Shown one piece after another: positions 39 through 61,511 of a DNA stretch of 64,000 nt. Every line of letters begins with the position of its first letter. Within the stretch, counting starts at the first letter, position 1. Where the stretch lies: NCBI GenBank assembly GCA_030737835.1, contig CM060847.1:8446704-8510703 (forward strand), read 5' to 3'. A program made the position numbers and the translations under genes. The DNA is from Acorus gramineus. Its lineage: Eukaryota; Streptophyta; Magnoliopsida; Acorales; Acoraceae. A model generated the notes under the pieces. The model ran no database searches and was not told where the DNA came from. It saw nothing but the letters and a program-made list of their open reading frames with translations.

Positions 39-3000
39 CTTCAGTATGTTAGGGTCCTTCCATGGCCCCTTATCAGACCTAAGGCAACCACCCTGGTCAG
101 AGCAGGTACATGTTCCACCAAGAAATTCTGGCAGTTCACTGCCAACCAAAAATGAAGTTAATACAATCATCACAAAAAAAATGTAAAATACATAACTGAT
201 ATAAGTTTACCATAAGTATTATAACGAAAACAACATCAATAAATAATCACCTTGCGTCAATTATTTCAAGTAATTTGCTCTGAAACTTGGCTCCAAGGAC
301 CTGAGAAATTTTGTGGATAATATAAACTGTAGGGTTTTGAAGATATTGTCAATAATAAAACAAGATAGCGAATAAACAGATCGCTTACATGGATTTTTGA
401 AGTTGTTTTTGGATCAAGAAAAGATTTCACAGCGTTCCAAATAAGCCTGAAGCCAGGGCCAGCATTAACAATAAACATTCGGCACAATGTCTGCAGCATT
501 ATAGTTTACACATCAGAGGGGCCAAGACCAACTTTTGTACAATGGATGCATAATTAGTACTAACCAAGTAAAACCTTTTCATAGACATACCTCAGGATAG
601 TTGTCGCTGTCAATCTTCTGCAGTCGCATCATGAGATCACGTGCAGTCTTGCTATAGTTTTTGAAACTCTGAGTAATAAATATAGTAATGACGACAAATC
701 AGTCTACTGATAATGTGGACAACAATAAAAACAATATAAAAACTGCAAAAAAACAAAACAGTAAGCACACAACATACCACACCCTGAACATCTAGAATTG
801 TAGTACTTGAATCAATATGCCGTTTTGCAGCAATTGAGCAAGCTGGAAACTTGATCTCAAAGCTCCTCTCAAATTCCAGTACATGATATCTTACATAACG
901 GTCCATGGTTGTCACTTGCATAAGCTTGCTGGGATCAACTTTTCCCAGCCTTTCTATGTAAACTGGCCTTCCCTCCTTATCCACTCCATGATAACCATGA
1001 GGGTAATACTTCAATACTTCATCTAACTCCTTGAAATCAAAATCCTAGAGAAAAAAAAAATCAACAAGCATATCAATTAATCGATCTTAAATCATATGAC
1101 AGCCAAAATTGCAATATTACACCAACATGAAAGAAGAAATCCAAAAATGACGAAAACGCATGCATAATTCAAATGAGAATACAAGAGAAAATCTATTAAG
1201 GTCATTTCTGTTTCTTGTACATGATTAGTGGTCCACTTCCTCACTAACTCATCAATGGACGCGCTCATGCATACACAACTCCACTCCAAATGTTACATTA
1301 ACCCTAGCATCCAAGATTTCATAACATTGTTGAACTCCTAAAGATATAATTCATAGCATAATTAATGGTTTGGACCATGAGCTCTAATGAAAAGATAAGA
1401 AAGTTCAAATACCTCCAATATAGTGTCAACACCGTATTCCTTCCTCCACTGAAGCATTTCAGCCCACATGTGCTTTGCTTTCTCAATATCAAATTTCCTC
1501 GCTTTCAAAAATCTGAAGAAATGGAAGGAAGGTAATAAAGATATAAATTAGAAACTAGAAAGTCAACATAACCACATACATCATAAATGAATGGCATAAA
1601 CTACCAAGATACTAGCATCATCTAGTTTGTATGTAGGAATGATACAGGACAAATAGACCCTCTCAAAAAGTTTACTTGACATGGAAGTGAAATTTTGGTA
1701 ACCTCAAGCATTTCTGTGCATTCTCTTATACAAGCGGAAGTCACAATTAAACAAACACCTGTACTCTTGTTTTTGTTATCCAAAGTTTACTACCATGTCA
1801 ATGATTTTTTTTTTTTTTTTGAAGTTCACTAAATGGGACCTTTTCATGGCTGGAAAGGAGCTCAAGAAAAATGGATAGAAGCTCCAAGTAAATTACTCGA
1901 CTGCTGCATAAACAATTTGGGAGAAGCATATAACCCATCCTATGGAAAAATTAACAAAGCCTCTGAACCTAGAAAGAGTCCATGGTTTTGCTCAAAATGG
2001 AAAGCAAAAGGTAAGAAATAAAGACCATCACAGATGACACATGATTGTGGATTTGAACACTGTCCAGCGAGAATTGTAGAACTACCAATTTGTGAGACAA
2101 ATTGAGAGATGGGTGCTTTAAAGGTAATTACCTCAGCATCATGTGGTAATCATCATGTCTTGCAGGTAGCAATTCATCTAAGACCAATGCTTGACGAAAT
2201 GCATCAACAGCCTGTAGCTCTTCAACATCCCGCACATCCTCAATTGAAACAGAAATCACACGACTGTCACTCTTTCTTCTGCTCTTTTTCTTTAAAGAGT
2301 GTCTGAATTTAGTGGAGGCATTTATCGCTTTCTTCTTCAATGACGCAATTCTTGTCCTCCTCTCATCTTCTGAATTTTCAAAATCTGATTTCCTTTCTCT
2401 TCTCTCGTCATGACTGGAAAAACCCTCAAAACCTGTAATATAATCCAATCCGTGAATGACTAACCAGCTTACAGAAGATTCTTGATTACACATTTCAGAT
2501 ACTTCCAACACAATAATTTTCTCATGGTGTTACGTTTGATAGTTTAGGACTACAGAGCACAAGTCACTAAAATGTGACAAAAGACTTTAGCTCACAAACT
2601 TACTATGTAATTAATATACTGCTCAAAATTCTACAGAACAAATTACACTAAATTGGACAACTAACTTAAACTCACAAAACAAATTAAGGAAATTTAAAAT
2701 GGACAATGAGAACGCCACTAAGCACCATCAACACATTCTTTCCTAAAAGTGATACAAAAACAATGGAGCTTTTCTTGAAACTGTTGTGGAACAAAACACT
2801 CCTCAAGACACAAGTACAATCTTAAACTTTCTGATACCGCTAATGTGAAGCTATTATTTCATTTGCCAACAGAATTAATATAAAAAAACCTAATTTAGTC
2901 GCGAGATAGAGCAAATGAAATCTATTATTTAAGTACCCAATACTACTACCCATTGAAAATTTTGAATTTATTTTAAAGAGCAGCTAAGTAAGAAAACAAG

Positions 3001-3244
3001 TAAACGCCTTCGAATGCCAAAGCTAATTTCATGCAATTAAAACCCTAAATTAACAGAAAAAAAACACACAACAACAATTGAAAAAACAGCCAATTTATTT
3101 CAAGAAAGAAACACAATTCCATAAAAAAAACCACCCAAAAAAAAAAAAAACAGAACAAACAAATGAGACGATCCAAACACATCGAACAAGGTCTCAGGAG
3201 AGAGACTCACATGGACGTGTGAATCGATCGAGCGGTCCCGACAT
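39..3244 (-). CDS. SFH: Sec14-like phosphatidylinositol transfer protein (SFH), 5' part, truncated by window edge
   Basis: Exons on the minus strand: 3211-3244, 2132-2432, 1413-1512, 778-1044, 591-668, 389-490, 251-300 and 39-138, giving 344 residues in one frame with GT-AG borders; a GT donor after the last exon shows the gene continues left. The start is the ATG at 3244 (MSGPLDRF). Residues about 25-60 form the basic Ser/Arg/Lys-rich N-terminus typical of plant SFH proteins. A CRAL_TRIO_N segment follows ([18 protein letters not shown]), then the Sec14 lipid-binding fold ([57 protein letters not shown]). Family members exchange phosphatidylinositol and phosphatidylcholine at membranes and support phosphoinositide signalling and polarised growth. 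The C-terminal part, including any nodulin-like tail, lies outside. Which SFH paralogue this is cannot be decided here. Confidence 0.93.
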
Positions 3245-8100: not shown

Positions 8101-8812
8101 ATTTTGATTAAAAACCCATCTGAACAACTTTTCACTTCAACTGCATGAAGAAAATCAAGTAAGAAAACACTCAAAAACTGTAAATAATGAAATGCTGTAA
8201 ACATAACAAAAGATATAGTCATTTGAAGCTCTATACTTGCAGCATTACTAAATCCTCAAGCACTTCACATTAAGGCTAGACAAATCTGGAAGGATGGGAA
8301 GATAATGAGTTTGGTCATAATACTCACACTGTGAGAAACCATATGAGAGTGACCAAAACTATATCCTGAACTAAACGGTAGAAGAGATTTCATACATCAG
8401 ACTTCCTCAAGAGGGACCCACCTAAAACTGCATCATCTAAAATGACATCTACAGATGACTGAAATAGGTCACATATAGTCCAATAAAAAAACAGGGAAGG
8501 ACAAAGGAACATACCAGCCTCAATCACAGTAGAGTTGACATAATCTTCATCGTTCTCATTGAAATTCTCTGCCATGCTACCATTGTCATCAGAAGATGAG
8601 CTGAAGGCACAGCGCACAACTGCAATCCTTTTCTCACAATGTTGAGAAGGGAGAGACCTTGCCCTGATTCGACGACCTCCGGAGCCCCATTTAGACCCCC
8701 AAATCCCGCTTCTAATTTTAACCATAGACCTACTCACAGGTGAAGAAAAAGCCCTGGGTTGCTTAGCCCGGATGGTTGGGCGGCAGATGACCGGTCCTTG
8801 TAGGGTTCCCAT
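5183..8812 (-). CDS. BBD: Bifunctional nuclease in basal defence (BBD-type, BFN domain plus UVR motif)
   Basis: Nine exons: 8515-8812, 7970-8140, 7805-7854, 7623-7679, 7450-7515, 7269-7343, 6512-6630, 6167-6258, 5183-5238; 984 bases, 327 aa. The ATG at 8812 is chosen because the longer upstream frame begins only with a non-ATG codon. Residues 1 to about 95 are poorly conserved and basic. About 100-275 is the BFN (DUF151) domain, with RDGRYMRCIHNN, HAIVLKMEDGSDLLLPIIV, EMPSVLLMAAI, RPTMYQILKEM, VHEAYFAQLYLAK and FDLRPSDAINIAVRCKVPI. About 290-320 is a UVR-like segment (AAVEERYRDAAEWRDKLAQL). Characterised family members have RNase and DNase activity and act in basal defence and ABA-linked callose control. 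Intron 5 must use a GC donor (see separate entry). The total length matches the family. Confidence 0.93.
7344..7449 (-). other. GC-AG intron in BBD (intron 5)
   Basis: The upstream exon must end after the AAG of LYLAK and the next begins GTG GGC (VGNE), as conserved in BBD proteins. On the coding strand the junction reads AAAG|GCATAC, so the donor is GC, not GT. No GT within reach keeps the frame; the acceptor is a normal CAG. Confidence 0.8.
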
Positions 8813-9560
8813 CTCAATTCCCCCACCCAAGCACAAATTCTACATCATTAAGCACCACACCACACCACACCACATTGATCGAACAGATGTAAATACTAAT
8901 TGAATTGCCAAAAAAAAAAAATTTAAAAAAATGAAACAAAACATTAATAGATAGCAAGAGAGAGACCTTGAGCATCTTATGCAAGCTTTACACTACACAA
9001 TGATTCATTTGAATTGAAATAATAAATTAGACATACCCAGATGAAACTCAACTGAATTTTAACTTCTCATGCAAGCCTTGAACCGCATATTAATCTATTG
9101 GAATTGAAAATGATAATATTAACAAGCTCAAATGAAATTCAACAGAGTTCTGGTACATACAAGGAAAAGAAACTCTTTTTGAGAGTTCACATTAAACGAA
9201 TACCAACAACAGATCACACGAAGTAATAACCGCACGAGAGACTCCCAAAGAAGGCAAAGAACCTTCCTTTAATCGCGTATGATACTTTGTTCATCTCCGA
9301 ACACAGATCATTAATTAAATCGCGTGAGCAAACAAAAAAAAAAAAAAACGACACACACAACAAAAGCGTGAAATCAAAACCGACCAAATGATTAAGCGAA
9401 ACACGCGATCACGAGACGGATCACGAACAGGAGTGCTTACTTGTAGCCTCGAAATCCGTGCAATGGGAATCTCCCGATCGCGGCCAAGAAATTGAAGAGT
9501 CGGTTGAGGATGATCGAAATCAAGATCGGTTTCAAAAACCCTAGTTTTTACCCCCCAAAA
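8813..9560 (-). promoter_or_regulatory. BBD 5' leader region and promoter
   Basis: No protein-coding sequence is visible upstream of the BBD ATG. The segment contains a CCACA-type tandem near 8857-8873 and, at about 9536-9545, AAACCCTAG (telo-box-like), common close to plant transcription starts. That spacing suggests a leader of up to about 700 bases that probably contains an intron, but the exact borders are not resolved. Confidence 0.4.
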
Positions 9561-12676: not shown

Positions 12677-15600
12677 CTACAGCTCGTCCTGAAACGGAAG
12701 AAAAAAAAAACAAACATGAAAAAATTAGCACACGAAGAAAATTAAAATGGCTACAGTACTTGTATATATCACATCATCCCAATTTATATTTTTGTGTGAT
12801 GGTTATTGCCATTAAAAGTAACCAAATTGTTTGATAAAAAAAAGATGCTGAACAAACAGGAAATCCACCAAATTTCCAAACATGTGCCATCACAGCCATC
12901 CTTGGAAATGCTCTGCTTTTCAAGGAATTAGATTCGATGGTTGTGATGGAATGTTGGTTACATGTTTGTCTACAATCGGTAGCACCTTCAAGAGCATCAG
13001 TAATCAAATATCTTTTTATCATAGAATAAAAAGAATCAAGACAGATGAGCAGAAGAGTGAACGATGATAAATCATGGTGGTGCTTGTGAAAAAAATTACT
13101 TGCAAACTAGATATGGCATTATAAATTATAACCTTGTTGGGGAAGGAAGCAAAAAACTCTACAAAAAATTCCTAATACTACACCAAACATGTTTCAGGGA
13201 AAAGGAAAACCGATCTGATTCTAAATACTACTCTACCAATTGACTGAATGTTCTGCTTGTATAGCTTAAAAGCAACAGAAAACAGAAAGAAGAAATAACA
13301 AGCATGGATGGCTCCAATGTAAAATGAAGTTAACAAATCACATGTGCATTTGAAAGCTACGTACTGAATGCATTATTGGAGACCACCCCAAAGTGATTAA
13401 TGAAGATGTTAAAGGAGAGACTTACATGCTTAACTTCATCTTCCTCCTCGTCTTCTGTATCATCAGAATCCTTCTCGTCCTGCAGCCATATAAAGCCAAT
13501 GTTATAACAATGTTTTCATTAAAAACTGAGAAACTCGACTAAGTTTTGTTTAAGATCTCACATCAGATTCATCAACGTCACTCTTGTCAGCCGCATCCTA
13601 TTTTAAGAAACAAAGAAAAAAAACTCAGTCTACAGCTCATTATAGATTAGAAAGTTTGTGAATTCTCTCACCCACAGAACAAATACAAAACAAGGGCAAG
13701 AAGTTGCAGTACCTCCTCCTCTTTCTTTTTCTCAGCTTCATCAAAAGCTGCCTTCTCAGCCTGCAAAAAGACAAATCATCAGAAAAATTGGAATAATGCA
13801 AATGCATAAAATTTACATCAAGTGAAAGTCCAACATACATCTTTCAGTTTTCCCCATGTTTCCTCAACCAGCTTCTTTGCATACTCGGGGTCATCACAGA
13901 CCAGAACATTGTCAAATAGGGTTCCAGATTTTACCTGAAACAAACAGTTTTCTCGAATCAGAACAATCAATTCCACTTGTATGATAATTCGTATGAACAC
14001 TGGCCAACTAAGTCGATTAAATTACCTGCCACAACTCAATTGCCACATATTTCAAGTCAGGGAAAACATAGAGATCAGGATCATCCTTGAAGTCTGTCAA
14101 ACAAGCCAATTGATTTTCAATAACGTGTGTAAACTTAAAGAACAATAATCAAATAGAAGTCCGAATCATTCAGCAGATCCTGAAGAGTGTAAAAAAAACA
14201 AAAACCTGGGTTGTCGATCATAGGAGCCTTCCACTTGCCCTTGTAGTTCGGGTTCTTAATTTTCTACGGATCCCAAAAAAAAGGTCAGTCAGTTTAAATT
14301 GAATCATAAAAAAGAGGTGGAAAATTTTCTCATTTCATTTACCTTTTGCTTCCATGGTCCCTTGTATTCAGGATTTGGAATGGTTGGGGCAGTCCACTCA
14401 CCATCTTCCTCATCATCCCAGTCCTCTGGCTGTTAAAATTTTACACTCAACCCATGTCAATATAACACATATTCTATTCTCTCTCAAGAACCTCCTTAGA
14501 ATATGTAAAAAAAACTTCCTAAAATTCAAAGCACTGCCCACAAAATCAAGAGAGGATATACCTTCTTGGCATCAACATCTGGGATCTCCTTTGGAATGTC
14601 ATCATAACCCTAAGCGATTACAAAATCATTAGCTATATATATTTAACTGAAACTGTTGAAAACAGATAAAATGATGACGGCACAAAAGCAAAAAGAAAGA
14701 AAAACTAAAAAAAATAGAAGCTATAATAAATGAAAAATCAGACCAGAATATCTGAATAAGCAAGCACATGCCAATATATGTTTTAGTTACAAAGATATGC
14801 AGTTTTGATGATCTAGTTATAAGAGTTCTGCAGTTTGCAAATGACTACCCATAAAGTTATAGATATTGCAGCATTTCAACATGGAAAGACACATGCTTCC
14901 AATAAGAAATATCTTAGGCAAGGATTTCTGTTCATTTACCTCTGGCTTCTTGTCCTCGGGATCAGGAATGTATTCCTTATCATCCCAATCTTCAGGCTGT
15001 AAAACAGCATAGCTTTTAAGAATTTTATCAAAACATATATACACATTACTATAATATAAGTACTAATAAGAATTTGATAATCATGAACTCTGCCTTCTTG
15101 GCTTCAGGGTCCTTAATTTGCTTAGGAGGGAGCAAGTCCCAGTCAGAATAAAGGCTTCCAGATTGTTTCTCTTCATTGTCAATCAAAATGCTGTATGTAG
15201 AATCAGGGCGGAGAACGAAAGTGTAAACATGAGTTAGCTGATCAGTTTCACAAGGAACGTCCTTCTTTATCAAATTGTTCTTCCCATCCCGAGTCAGTAT
15301 AGCATGAACTTTCTTTGTGCTGTAGCCACAAATATCAGGTCCAAACATAATGCTGCACAGAACAGTGTAAGGTTTAGTGCAACAGCATGCAATCGGGTAG
15401 CAAAGACAAAAGCCACATTTGCATGCATAACCAACTGCATATAATGAAAAAAGGTAGGCATGAAGTGGAACATAAACAAGGCTGAACAAACATGTTACAC
15501 CTCCTCCTCGGAAAGTTATTTCAAAATTTATTCAGTTTTAAACTGACTAGATATTCAAGTCAATTTTGACAACCAAACATATACAACCAGATAACTCTTA

Positions 15601-17367: not shown

Positions 17368-17406
17368 CGACTTCGGCCCGATCACGAAATGGTGGTGACC
17401 AGTGAG

Positions 17407-17413
17407 TGACGTG
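17407..17413. promoter_or_regulatory. TGACGTG motif near calreticulin transcription start
   Basis: TGACGTG is the core of plant unfolded-protein-response elements bound by bZIP60/bZIP28-type factors. It lies about 40 bases upstream of the start codon and downstream of the TATA box, so it may be fortuitous; an ACGTG core also occurs on the other side of the TATA box at about 17470-17480. Confidence 0.35.
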
Positions 17414-17447
17414 CGTGCCTTTTGGGAAGCTCTGACTCCAAGAGAGA

Positions 17448-17455
17448 TTTTTATA
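17448..17455 (-). promoter_or_regulatory. TATA box (TATAAAAA) of calreticulin
   Basis: TATAAAAA on the minus strand, about 80 bases upstream of the ATG, predicts transcription starting near 17415-17425 and a short leader of about 50 bases. Confidence 0.6.
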
Positions 17456-18596
17456 GTCTGAACTGATGTCGTACACGTTCTTATGTTTAACTCACTTTAT
17501 AACTAATAAAAACAAACTTTATAGACCACTTGGATTAGAAAATCTGGACCGCTCAAGTATGTTATATTGTTACCGCGGGTGAGGTGAACCAAAACCCCTT
17601 CCAAAAGCCCTCGTTAATGACGAAGAGTGGGAGGAGTACAGGTCACGAGTGGCAATGACTAAACTACCCTTGTATTTGATCCGGATTAGTGGGGACTGGG
17701 AAGGGCATTAGTGGAATTACAACGCAAAGTTTGCTTCTTATTTACGTTAGAAGCCGTCCAAGGCGTCAATCACAAGGTTTGTTATTTTGACGATATCTCC
17801 TCGAAAATTATCAACAACTGTATTATATGTCAGAAATGCCCCTCCAAACGAGCAGAACTACGGGAGGGACCGTTTAGCTTTCCTCCAATGCGAAGGGTAG
17901 AACAGTAAAATGGGAGACGGAAGCATGGTTGGAGAATATCCCTACAGCACATTCTAGTGGAGGATAATTATTCCGGGCCTTTGATATAAGGTCCACGAAA
18001 TGGGCCTAATGGATCTTTATTGCAAAACTCCAATAGATCTTTTGTAAGGGCCCATCAAACAAGACAATGTAGTCCCAAGAGCAAAAGCACAGATATACTC
18101 AGTCAATTTTACAGTCCTATACACTATAATAGTATGACATAAAAAAATTTATTTTTTTAAAACGAGAAAAAATATTATTATATCTTAACATATATTTCAT
18201 TTCATATAGTCGCATGTACTTCAATGAGAGAGTGTGATTTTTTTTTAAGAAAATGAAAACTGGTGTGAATTACGATTGAAGCTGAACATATCATTTTCCA
18301 AGGTCCTGGGTTAGGTTCCAAACTTCTGAACCAACTTACACATTGATACACTTAAGGCCAGCCCACAAGTCGAATCCTCATTCACCGGAATTCAATTATA
18401 TTAGATTCTTTTTTAAAATGGTAGTTCATTCACAATCGATTAAACGAGTTACAAATTGACCGAATTATATTAGATTCTATGGAATGAAAATTTTTGTTTT
18501 AGATAAACAAAGAATAAACTTAGGTTTAAATACAAATTTTTTGGGTATTCAAGTAAAATGAGAATGAACGCTAAACTACTCCTTAGTCATTCTTGT
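17456..18596. other. Calreticulin upstream region, no gene; Site II-like motifs at 17971-18056
   Basis: GC-richer sequence at 17560-17930 has an open frame but no recognisable protein. At 17971-18056 three GGGCC-type motifs occur (TGGGCC at 18001, GGCCCA at 18049), resembling Site II elements of housekeeping promoters. Further left the DNA turns AT-rich. Confidence 0.45.
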
Positions 18597-38498: not shown

Positions 38499-38546
38499 AT
38501 GAGTTATATGTTGAAGTTCCTGCTTCATGTCTCCTATCCTCAGTGA
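38499..38546 (+). CDS. Short uORF overlapping the sucrose-control uORF
   Basis: A 15-codon frame (MSYMLKFLLHVSYPQ) that starts 28 bases before the sucrose-control uORF, in another frame, and ends inside it. Overlapping small uORFs at this spot are a known arrangement in group S1 bZIP leaders and tune how often the second uORF is initiated. Confidence 0.55.
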   Translation: MSYMLKFLLHVSYPQ

Positions 38547-38652
38547 GATCCTCCTCTCCGGGTTTATGATCAACTCCACCCTCCGACGCAGGACCCACTT
38601 AGTTCAGTCATTCTCCGTTGTCTTCCTCTACTGGTTCTACGTGTTTTCATGA
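38527..38652 (+). CDS. Sucrose-control peptide uORF (SC-uORF) of group S1 bZIP
   Basis: A 41-codon frame: MSPILSEILLSGFMINSTLR, RRTHLVQSF, SVVFLYWFYVFS, stop. The core (LSGFMINSTLRRRTHLVQSF and SVVFLYWFYVFS) is the conserved SC-peptide of bZIP11/bZIP2/bZIP44/bZIP53/bZIP1 leaders. In that family the nascent peptide stalls ribosomes when sucrose is high and so represses translation of the main bZIP frame. The stop lies 158 bases before the main ATG, with no further ATG between, so re-initiation or leaky scanning must feed the bZIP. This small frame is real although it is short. Confidence 0.95.
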   Translation: MSPILSEILLSGFMINSTLRRRTHLVQSFSVVFLYWFYVFS

Positions 38653-38810
38653 ACTCTCTGTCTCTCTAAAGTCACTCTCTTGGGGTCCTGCTTTTCTTTC
38701 CTCCTCTTCTTCCCCCCTCTCTATATATCTATCTTTCTATAATTCGCTCAAAATAATAAAAAAAAAAGTCAGCTCCTTTACATACAAATATAAACATATA
38801 TCAATCATCA

Positions 38811-39278
38811 ATGGCTTCTTCAAGTGGCACTTCATCTGGGTTGTCTCACCTCCCAAACTCCGGGTCCGAGGAGGACCTCCAGGCGGCGATGAACCGTCGA
38901 AAGCAGAAGCGGATGCTCTCCAACCGCGAGTCCGCGAGGCGGTCGAGGATGCGAAAGCAGAAGCATTTGGACGATCTGATGGCGCAGGTGAACCAGCTGA
39001 GGAGGGAGAACAGCCAGATCATAACAAGCCTCAACATCACAACCCAACATTACGCGCGTGTCGAGTCAGACAATTCGGTCCTCAGGACTCAAATGGTGGA
39101 GCTCAGCACGAGACTTCAGTCTCTCAATGAGATCCTCCATTACATGAACAGCTCTAATGGGGTTGTCTGTGATGGATCCCAGACAGGCATTGATGGGTTC
39201 TCCATGAACCCATGGAACAATAATTTGTTCTATGTGAACCAGCCAATCATGGCCTCTGCAGACATGTTTCAGTACTGA
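38811..39278 (+). CDS. Group S1 bZIP transcription factor (bZIP11/bZIP44-like)
   Basis: Intronless, 155 aa. Residues 28-47 are the basic region (NRRKQKRMLSNRESARRSRM) with the invariant N38-x7-R46. The leucine zipper follows from L56 (L56, L63, I70 and later hydrophobic heptads to about residue 107). The C-terminus ends NQPIMASADMFQY, as in bZIP11/44 relatives. The N-terminus is Ser/Gly-rich. Group S1 proteins dimerise with group C bZIPs, bind ACGT-core sites and reprogramme amino-acid and sugar metabolism under low energy (SnRK1 signalling). Translation is most likely sugar-repressed through the SC-uORF in the leader. The bZIP11 versus bZIP44 assignment is not decided. Confidence 0.95.
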   Translation: MASSSGTSSGLSHLPNSGSEEDLQAAMNRRKQKRMLSNRESARRSRMRKQKHLDDLMAQVNQLRRENSQIITSLNITTQHYARVESDNSVLRTQMVELSTRLQSLNEILHYMNSSNGVVCDGSQTGIDGFSMNPWNNNLFYVNQPIMASADMFQY

Positions 39279-59300: not shown

Positions 59301-59455
59301 AACTTCAAGAGATATTTTAAAAGGGGTACTTTAGGTCATAACAAACAAATGGTTAGAATCATGGCTTCAACCCTACAGCTTGAAATTTTGAATATAGATT
59401 AGTTGTTCCACCAACACCCACATCAGAACATGGAGAAAGTGGCAAACCTCTACTT
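56348..59455. other. Intergenic, no gene identified
   Basis: 56348-56526 on the minus strand has an open frame (SNNFLHLIDQEDDLMGHGLS, YIGALHFEIVQLIYDIVRSY) that stops being plausible exactly at the hAT-like element, so it may be a gene fragment cut by insertion, but the family is not recognised. The rest is AT-rich. About 59465-59674 is the CIF leader. Confidence 0.45.
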
Positions 59456-59464
59456 TATATAAAA
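59456..59464 (+). promoter_or_regulatory. TATA box (TATATAAAA) of the CIF-type gene
   Basis: TATATAAAA about 210 bases upstream of the ATG. It predicts a start near 59490 and a leader of about 185 bases that contains CT-rich stretches. Confidence 0.6.
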
Positions 59465-59674
59465 GCTTAGTAAGATTGCATTGTCTTCAAATTTTTTTTT
59501 TTTAAATAAACATTGTCACTCAGTTGGCCAGCCCTTTCTTTTGCTGCAATGTGTATTTCAACTTAGAAACAAAGCATCTAATTTTTTCTCTCTCTCTTAG
59601 TACTTGAAAGTTGAAGCAGAAGAAATAACAGGAGGATAGAATTGCAGATTCTTGAAAGAAAAATCTCTCTCAAA

Positions 59675-61419
59675 ATGGATTCTAAATCTCTTAAAGAGAT
59701 CATTCTTTTCTTCATCGTTCTATCGACTGTGATTCTTCCGGCCGCAGGTCTGTCTATCTTTTAATCTTCTGTAAAGCTTAACCATTTTTACAAAACAGAA
59801 TCTCAGTTAAGCAGATGTGTGCATGCAGATTAGTATCACGTGTGTTTATATTTTGATCGATTTTAAATTTTATGATAGTAACATAAGATGTTATGTCATG
59901 TTATGTTGTTCTTGTTGATTATATGGTTTTCATACATGTTGGGAATTGATTTCTGCAGGATCCAACCGAAAGTTAGTGGAGAATTCTATGGTGCAAGTTC
60001 ATATGGAGTCTAAGGTATGCCAAGAAACAAAAGATCTGTAGTATATTTTCAAGACTGACCATGTTTTATTCATTCAAAATCAGTGTTAATGGTCTTAATT
60101 TTTCAGGATTAGTGAAGGCCTTGTTGCTATATCCCATGAATTGTGTTCAAACCTGAATCGTGTTTATTTCTATAATCAACGCCAAAATCTTTTATAAACA
60201 CATGCATGGAAGAAACAAGAAATATGATTGGTTTTTTTCCCTTAGATTTCTTTAATAACAGTACTGATAGATCATATTGTTCAGATAACCATATTTCAAA
60301 ATGTTAATATAATTAATATCTTATGTATATATGTATGTATATGTATGTAAGTATGCACACCGAAAAAATTTCTGACATATATATATGCATTGCAACTTTG
60401 AGTTAGGTCCAACTCAAAACAGGATTAATTTCCATGTGGATTGAGTTAGAGCTGTTCAGATTCTAAGGTTTACGTTGGGATTGAGTTTGGATTAATGTTC
60501 GAACAACCAGACTCAACCCCAACTCAATCATCATATAATTATGTACTAAAGTTTTACAATAAATTTATTCCAATTTTGTTTATTTACATAGTGTTTTTAG
60601 ATCTCTTGTCCGGTGAAAATCATATCAAATGAAAGTTTTGAGGCCCATACATGTACTGATTGTGTTAAACCTAGTTTGATCCAAACTTGAAATTCAGGTT
60701 TTTCGGATTGGGTTGAGATTGTGAGTTGGATTAGTTCAAATTAGATTCAGATTGAACATTCCCATCTCAACATGTGTTACAAAGTTTATAACAAAAGGGT
60801 ACAAATTCAGTCTAAGTGCTTGTCCACTATTACTGAATAAAGTAGGCTTTAAAACACTCACTCATAAAGGGAAAGGAAGTGATGGACAACCCATCAAATA
60901 AACATTAATGAACTGAATGGTTGGAAGGCATGAAGACAGACACAAGGGGAAAATAACGTAACTCTCTTTTATTTACTGTTTTAGACAAACATGCATGCAT
61001 GAACAGAACTCTTTGAAATAAATTTTATTTTGTCTCAATTTTCACCTCAACATGTGTAAACATTCATTTTAAAGTCATAAGAATTCATGTGTCTTTCAAA
61101 TGAAATCATGCACCTTTCAAATGAAATCATGCACACCTTATGGTATATGTAAACATTCATTTTAAAGTCATATGGATTCATGTATAATCATGCGTACAGT
61201 TGATCAAAACTTAATTCAAGCTCTTTGTTTGTTTGCTTTGATGTGAGAATTTTTATGTTTCAATGCCTGAATTGGTAGGGAATGATGAAGGAGACTCCCA
61301 ACAAGGAGAAGGTAATTGGTGCTCACCCAAGAATGCTGAGAGTCAACACCAAGGACTATGATAGCTATGATCCTGCACCAGCTATGGTGAGACCTCCTTT
61401 CAAGCTCATACCCAACTGA
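59675..61419 (+). CDS. CIF: CASPARIAN STRIP INTEGRITY FACTOR-type peptide hormone precursor
   Basis: Three exons: 59675-59747, 59959-60014, 61279-61419; 270 bases, 89 aa. Residues 1-25 are a signal peptide (MDSKSLKEIILFFIVLSTVI, then LPAAG). Residues 26-68 are a basic, variable propeptide. Residues 69-89, at the very end, are the mature peptide: DYDSYDPAPAMV followed by RPPFKLIPN. The DY start (sulfation site for TPST) and the RPPFKLIPN end are the signature of Arabidopsis CIF1/CIF2, which are released by processing, sulfated, and bind the receptor kinases GSO1/SGN3 and GSO2 to control Casparian strip or embryo and pollen barrier integrity. The family's total length of about 80-100 aa fits. 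Intron 2 (1264 bases) is large and holds a repeat. Which CIF (root barrier CIF1/2 or CIF3/4 type) cannot be told from sequence alone. Confidence 0.93.
60446..60766. repeat. hAT-like remnant in CIF intron 2
   Basis: The interior has alternating GGATTGAGTT and CAACCCCAACTC motifs like the other hAT-type MITEs. The ends (GAGCTGTTCAGAT and the complement of GGGAATGTTCAATCT) are roughly inverted. No target duplication is seen, so limits are approximate. Confidence 0.4.
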
Positions 61420-61505: not shown

Positions 61506-61511
61506 AATAAA
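61506..61511 (+). terminator. Candidate poly(A) signal AATAAA for CIF
   Basis: AATAAA about 87 bases after the stop codon; position and sequence are suitable for plant polyadenylation. Confidence 0.5.

Follow-up and report, generated by a model that had tools for sequence, protein, structure and literature searches.

A probable CIF1/2-type Casparian strip integrity factor gene with small exons in Acorus gramineus

The locus and its neighbouring genes

The window analysed here, a stretch of 64,000 nucleotides of Acorus gramineus DNA, contains on its plus strand a small three-exon gene with its ATG at 59675 and the end of its stop codon at 61419, which is predicted to encode the precursor of a short secreted peptide. 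The same window holds the 5' part of a SEC14/SFH-type gene and a bZIP transcription factor gene that is preceded by an upstream open reading frame (uORF).

652..3244, minus strand: SEC14/SFH-type gene, 5' part, the rest lying beyond the window edge (Pfam CRAL_TRIO, E 8.5e-8 for 652-1044; start and further exons read by eye)
38527..38652, plus strand: 41-residue uORF ahead of the bZIP gene, encoding the leader peptide MSPILSEILLSGFMINSTLRRRTHLVQSFSVVFLYWFYVFS
38811..39278, plus strand: bZIP transcription factor (Pfam bZIP_1, E 1.9e-11 on the frame 38760-39278)

The bZIP gene and its leader peptide (38527-39278, plus strand) are ordinary and well kept. We take the leader peptide to be the sucrose-control uORF of group S1 bZIP genes, and the transcription factor behind it is presumably of the S1 type (bZIP11/bZIP44-like), an assignment that follows from the leader peptide. 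A tblastn search of the phage collection with the leader peptide gave no match, which has no bearing on the assignment, and the frame at 2128-2529 of the SEC14/SFH-type gene had no match in Pfam. About 20 kb and several genes separate the bZIP gene from the peptide gene in the window, and between the two lie a HECT_2 frame, a weak pentatricopeptide-like frame and a DnaJ-X gene. When other frames of the window were searched against Pfam, no family was returned for 5 of 10 in one set and 5 of 10 in a second, and the matches to DnaJ, PPR_3, PPR_2, FF and MDY2_C in the second set were under the Pfam cut-offs. An Rfam search of the window gave no match and ARAGORN found no tRNA in it. A calreticulin exon (Pfam E 2.6e-16) occupies 15049-15531 on the minus strand, and a frame without a Pfam match lies on the same strand at 8390-8839. 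We take this last frame to resemble a BBD bifunctional nuclease, a gene of which presumably neighbours bZIP44 in Arabidopsis.

The company of these genes is of interest when set beside the Arabidopsis locus numbers given in the cited sources. There, SFH1 is At4g34580 (PMC5464667, PMC10225987), bZIP11 is At4g34590 (PMC5315408, PMC2075485) and CIF2, a Casparian strip integrity factor, is At4g34600 (PMC11534595). CIF1 is At2g16385 (PMC11534595) and SFH7 is At2g16380 (PMC5464667, PMC10225987), so that by locus number both AtCIF1 and AtCIF2 have a neighbour of the SFH family, and AtCIF2 has bZIP11 as well. A third region holds SFH5, At1g75370 (PMC10225987), and bZIP44, At1g75390 (PMC5315408, PMC2075485), and bZIP2, which is named as the recent duplicate of bZIP11, is At2g18160 (PMC2075485) and by its locus number is not adjacent to CIF1. 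The co-occurrence of an SFH gene, a bZIP gene with its leader peptide and a CIF gene in one window suggests a correspondence with SFH1, bZIP11 and CIF2, whose closeness in Arabidopsis is taken from locus numbers only; in the window, other genes lie between the three. The arrangement seen in the window may be an ancestral one, and the Arabidopsis regions may represent reduced duplicates of it. A shared neighbourhood, if confirmed on a real map, would be a handle for tracing CIF orthologues, a purpose for which 21-residue peptides alone do poorly.

Gene model and splice sites

The features of the gene and of its immediate flanks are as follows.

59456..59461, plus strand: TATATA, a TATA-like candidate core promoter about 215 bases 5' of the ATG, proposed from position and sequence
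59675..59747, plus strand: exon 1, 73 bases; ATG and a hydrophobic signal sequence; donor CAG/GTCTGT, rank 3 of 109 GT sites
59959..60014, plus strand: exon 2, 56 bases; propeptide, frame-restoring; acceptor rank 1 of 101 AG sites, donor rank 1 of 109 GT sites
61279..61419, plus strand: exon 3, 141 bases; last part of the propeptide, then the mature peptide and the stop; weak acceptor, rank 6 of 101 AG sites
61354..61416, plus strand: predicted mature CIF peptide DYDSYDPAPAMVRPPFKLIPN, with a predicted sulfation site at Tyr-2 (from the match to 6S6Q chain C and a comparison with 14 peptides)
61506..61511, plus strand: AATAAA, a candidate polyadenylation signal, from sequence only

The joined coding sequence of 73 + 56 + 141 bases comes to 270 bases, that is 89 codons and a stop, and translates to the precursor MDSKSLKEIILFFIVLSTVILPAAGSNRKLVENSMVQVHMESKGMMKETPNKEKVIGAHPRMLRVNTKDYDSYDPAPAMVRPPFKLIPN. 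An earlier, sequence-only reading of this DNA had described an 89-residue precursor split over three exons with a second exon of only 56 bases, and re-translation reproduced this model to the base. The splice sites that it reported are present as well: both introns are GT-AG with consistent phases (211 bases in phase 1 and 1264 bases in phase 0), and both sites of exon 2 are top-ranked, with a weak acceptor at exon 3. The introns have an A+T content of about 70% and 69%, against 56% for the coding exons. Exon 2 is required for the reading frame, because skipping it in silico changes the frame and gives a product ending in ...AAGNDEGDSQQGEGNWCSPKNAESQHQGL from which the motif is lost. The in-frame codon immediately 5' of exon 3 is TAG, and the open frame of that exon therefore does not extend back into the intron. 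At the other end of the precursor, the claim of a signal peptide is borne out insofar as hydropathy can judge a secretion signal: the N-terminus is hydrophobic, and the maximum in a 12-residue window falls on residues 9-20, IILFFIVLSTVI, with a mean of 3.18. The stop codon follows directly after the last Asn, which places the peptide at the C-terminus of the precursor.

Keeping the ATG (59675) and the stop codon (61419) fixed yields 19 models that end in the motif; 17 have two exons and 2 have three, where three-exon models were left out if donors scored 0 or less or acceptors -2 or less. The proposed model is at the top with a score of 18.9, followed by one that shares its exons 1 and 2 at 15.2 and, in third place, a two-exon model at -0.3; these sums come from approximate splice matrices and favour models with more sites, and a four-site sum can be compared only loosely with a two-site sum. 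Two very short uORFs lie 5' of the ATG, at 59430-59462 (MEKVANLYFI) and 59549-59566 (MCIST), of which only MCIST is 3' of the TATA-like site and may sit in the leader. In intron 2, just 5' of exon 3, positions 61052-61183 carry a 39-base direct repeat that is 92% identical at a spacing of 93.

A competing acceptor in intron 2

The acceptor of exon 3 faces a competitor that lies much closer to exon 2.

60107..60112, plus strand: first bases after the competing acceptor TTTTTCAG/GATTAG, rank 2 of 101 AG sites

This site scores 5.49, against 2.51 for the exon 3 acceptor at 61279. If exon 2 is joined to it, the intron is 92 bases long and the frame meets a stop after one codon, giving a 44-residue product without the CIF motif. 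The sequence-only reading had named a better in-frame alternative without the motif as one finding that would refute it, and the product spliced to 60107 is an alternative of that kind. Chance is a sufficient explanation for the competing site: 61 of 300 shuffled versions of intron 2 contain a site equal to it or better, and the real intron has one internal acceptor scoring at least 2.51, against a mean of 2.81 in the shuffles.

These numbers bear on the possibility of a CIF copy that has decayed or fallen silent, in which the motif has been kept but splicing goes to 60107 or no transcript is produced. The higher score of that acceptor and the truncated product that it yields are what one would expect of such a copy, but the 89 codons contain neither a frameshift nor a stop, the frame runs through two junctions with neither the signal sequence nor the peptide damaged, and about a fifth of the shuffled introns hold an acceptor as good as the competing one. 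If 60107 were the site used, the open frame and the intact hormone in exon 3 would have no explanation, and we regard a decayed copy as improbable. A splice switch, in which use of 60107 would give a secreted 44-residue precursor without the hormone and use of the weak distal acceptor at 61279 would give the hormone, seems to us just as doubtful. If such a switch were real, the choice of splice site would set the dose of CIF.

Identity of the predicted peptide

The C-terminal 21 residues of the precursor are DYDSYDPAPAMVRPPFKLIPN, in agreement with the DY...RPPFKLIPN ending that had been reported, and thus have the length, the DY start and the PPFKLIPN end that mark CIF1/2 peptides. In a search of PDB chain sequences, the sole match up to E 10 was the CIF2 peptide in structure 6S6Q (chain C), at E 0.0015 with the precursor and E 2.2e-5 with the 21-residue peptide. 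No Pfam family matched the 89 residues of the precursor at E values up to 10, so membership in the CIF family rests on the 21-residue peptide, the layout of the precursor and the neighbourhood. In a literature search the string RPPFKLIPN at the start of a word had no match, and the shorter PPFKLIP does occur.

Fourteen peptides drawn from PMC11534595, PMC9369194 and PMC9028419 were used for comparison. Ungapped identity was 13/21 with AtCIF1, 14/21 with AtCIF2, 14/21 with GmXAP3 of soybean and 15/21 with SlCIF1 of tomato, and the scores against these four CIF1/2-type peptides were between 76 and 90, values reached by 0 of 2000 shuffles in each case. AtCIF3 (8/21 identical, score 36, z 5.0) and soybean GmXAP5 (score 29, z 5.1) also stood above all 2000 shuffles, and the remaining eight peptides scored 16 or less. 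Seven DY peptides from outside the CIF family, which served as the test of the PSY and RGF/GLV class, scored 3 to 29, GmXAP5 being the one among them that exceeded its shuffles. The DY start, being common to all 14 peptides, would by itself leave room for another family of sulfated DY peptides (PSY, RGF/GLV) or for the CIF3, CIF4 and TWS1 branch, and AtCIF3 and GmXAP5 do rise above their shuffles, but both fall far short of the CIF1/2-type scores and the PPFKLIPN ending is confined to the four CIF1/2-type peptides among the 14. We consider an origin in one of these other groups very improbable.

Relative to AtCIF2 there are seven substitutions, at positions 3-6, 8, 10 and 11, and relative to AtCIF1 there are eight, at the same positions and at position 12, so that the peptide starts with DYD here and with DYG in both Arabidopsis peptides. 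The AtCIF1 and AtCIF2 precursors are likewise small, 83 residues each (PMC11534595) against 89 here, and carry a 21-residue DY...RPPFKLIPN peptide, and the length found here is inside the span of 76-118 residues of the Arabidopsis and patchouli CIF genes listed in PMC11534595 and PMC11855783. SlCIF1 and GmXAP3 share with the peptide a YDPxP core and the PPFKLIPN end, but they have DYGR and KPPFK where the peptide here has DYDS and RPPFK. Xylem sap was found to contain both, including forms that carry sulfated Tyr and hydroxyproline (PMC9028419 for SlCIF1, PMC9369194 for GmXAP3), whereas the peptide here is predicted; the latter does have P7, P9 and P14, the positions modified in GmXAP3, and hydroxylation at these positions is itself a prediction. 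CIF3, CIF4 and TWS1 belong to the same published family and begin with DY, and CIF3 and CIF4 also have P7 and P9, but their endings lack PPFKLIPN and are given as ...IEH, ...IPH or ...VPH (PMC11534595). None of these three endings is present in the precursor, which ends in KLIPN.

By its ending, then, the gene would be placed with CIF1 and CIF2 and apart from CIF3, CIF4 and TWS1. The CIF family proposed by the sequence-only reading is supported, with one refinement: RPPFKLIPN is the ending of CIF1 and CIF2, so that a role in the root Casparian strip is expected rather than one in pollen or seed. In tomato, expression of SlCIF1 was detected in roots only, according to PMC9028419.

A degenerate 27-base pattern for RPPFKLIPN has a single match in the window, and none of 100 dinucleotide shuffles contains it. 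A six-frame motif search of the window found no second CIF1/2-type ending, and its one extra DY...PPF match, on the minus strand at 17387-17458, is without the KLIPN ending. Searches of prokaryote and viral sequences with the DNA pattern served to control for chance and to look for mimics. The viral collection gave 0 matches, and the single match in the prokaryote genome collection looks non-coding: it sits in an open stretch of 10 residues, flanked by stops, that has no DY. A chance resemblance in intergenic DNA, which the short exons and the missing Pfam model might suggest, is contradicted by these shuffles and the look of the lone prokaryote match, by the stop right after the motif, by the best-ranked splice sites of exon 2 and by a neighbourhood similar to that of Arabidopsis, and we give it practically no weight.

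Proposed function and place in the CIF family

The reading of this locus as a CIF gene agrees with the peptide sequence, the layout of the precursor, the splice phases and the genes nearby, and we conclude that this flowering-plant gene very probably encodes a Casparian strip integrity factor of the CIF1/2 type, one of the peptide hormones by which root cells learn whether the Casparian strip that seals them is complete. If it acts as its relatives do, the 89-residue precursor would be secreted from the stele, TPST would sulfate the Tyr of the DY motif, and cleavage before DY would free the 21-residue C-terminal peptide. The peptide would then diffuse through gaps in the Casparian strip and bind receptor kinases of the GSO1/SGN3 type on endodermal cells, and the receptor would switch on the deposition of lignin until the gap is closed. 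This follows the order of the CIF pathway (stele, strip gaps, SGN3/GSO1, lignin) as given in PMC10827307 and PMC11534595. The predicted binding to GSO1/SGN3 and GSO2 leans on the sequence match to the CIF2 peptide of 6S6Q. Transcription and splicing of the gene, like hydroxylation of its peptide, are expected by analogy with the same relatives.

The gene is an ordinary further member of a known family. A survey of 33 species reports CIF homologues in 29 of them, from gymnosperms to grasses and eudicots, and places the origin of CIF in seed plants (PMC11855783), and CIF-like motifs have been reported in three deep eukaryotic lineages (PMC13091385). Because homologues are already known from so many of the surveyed species, the value of this gene lies in annotation: it adds one well-formed CIF1/2-type gene together with its gene model and its neighbourhood. 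In patchouli, CIF genes have two to six exons (PMC11855783), and the present case illustrates how a motif search, combined with phase arithmetic, can recover precursor genes that are short and split.
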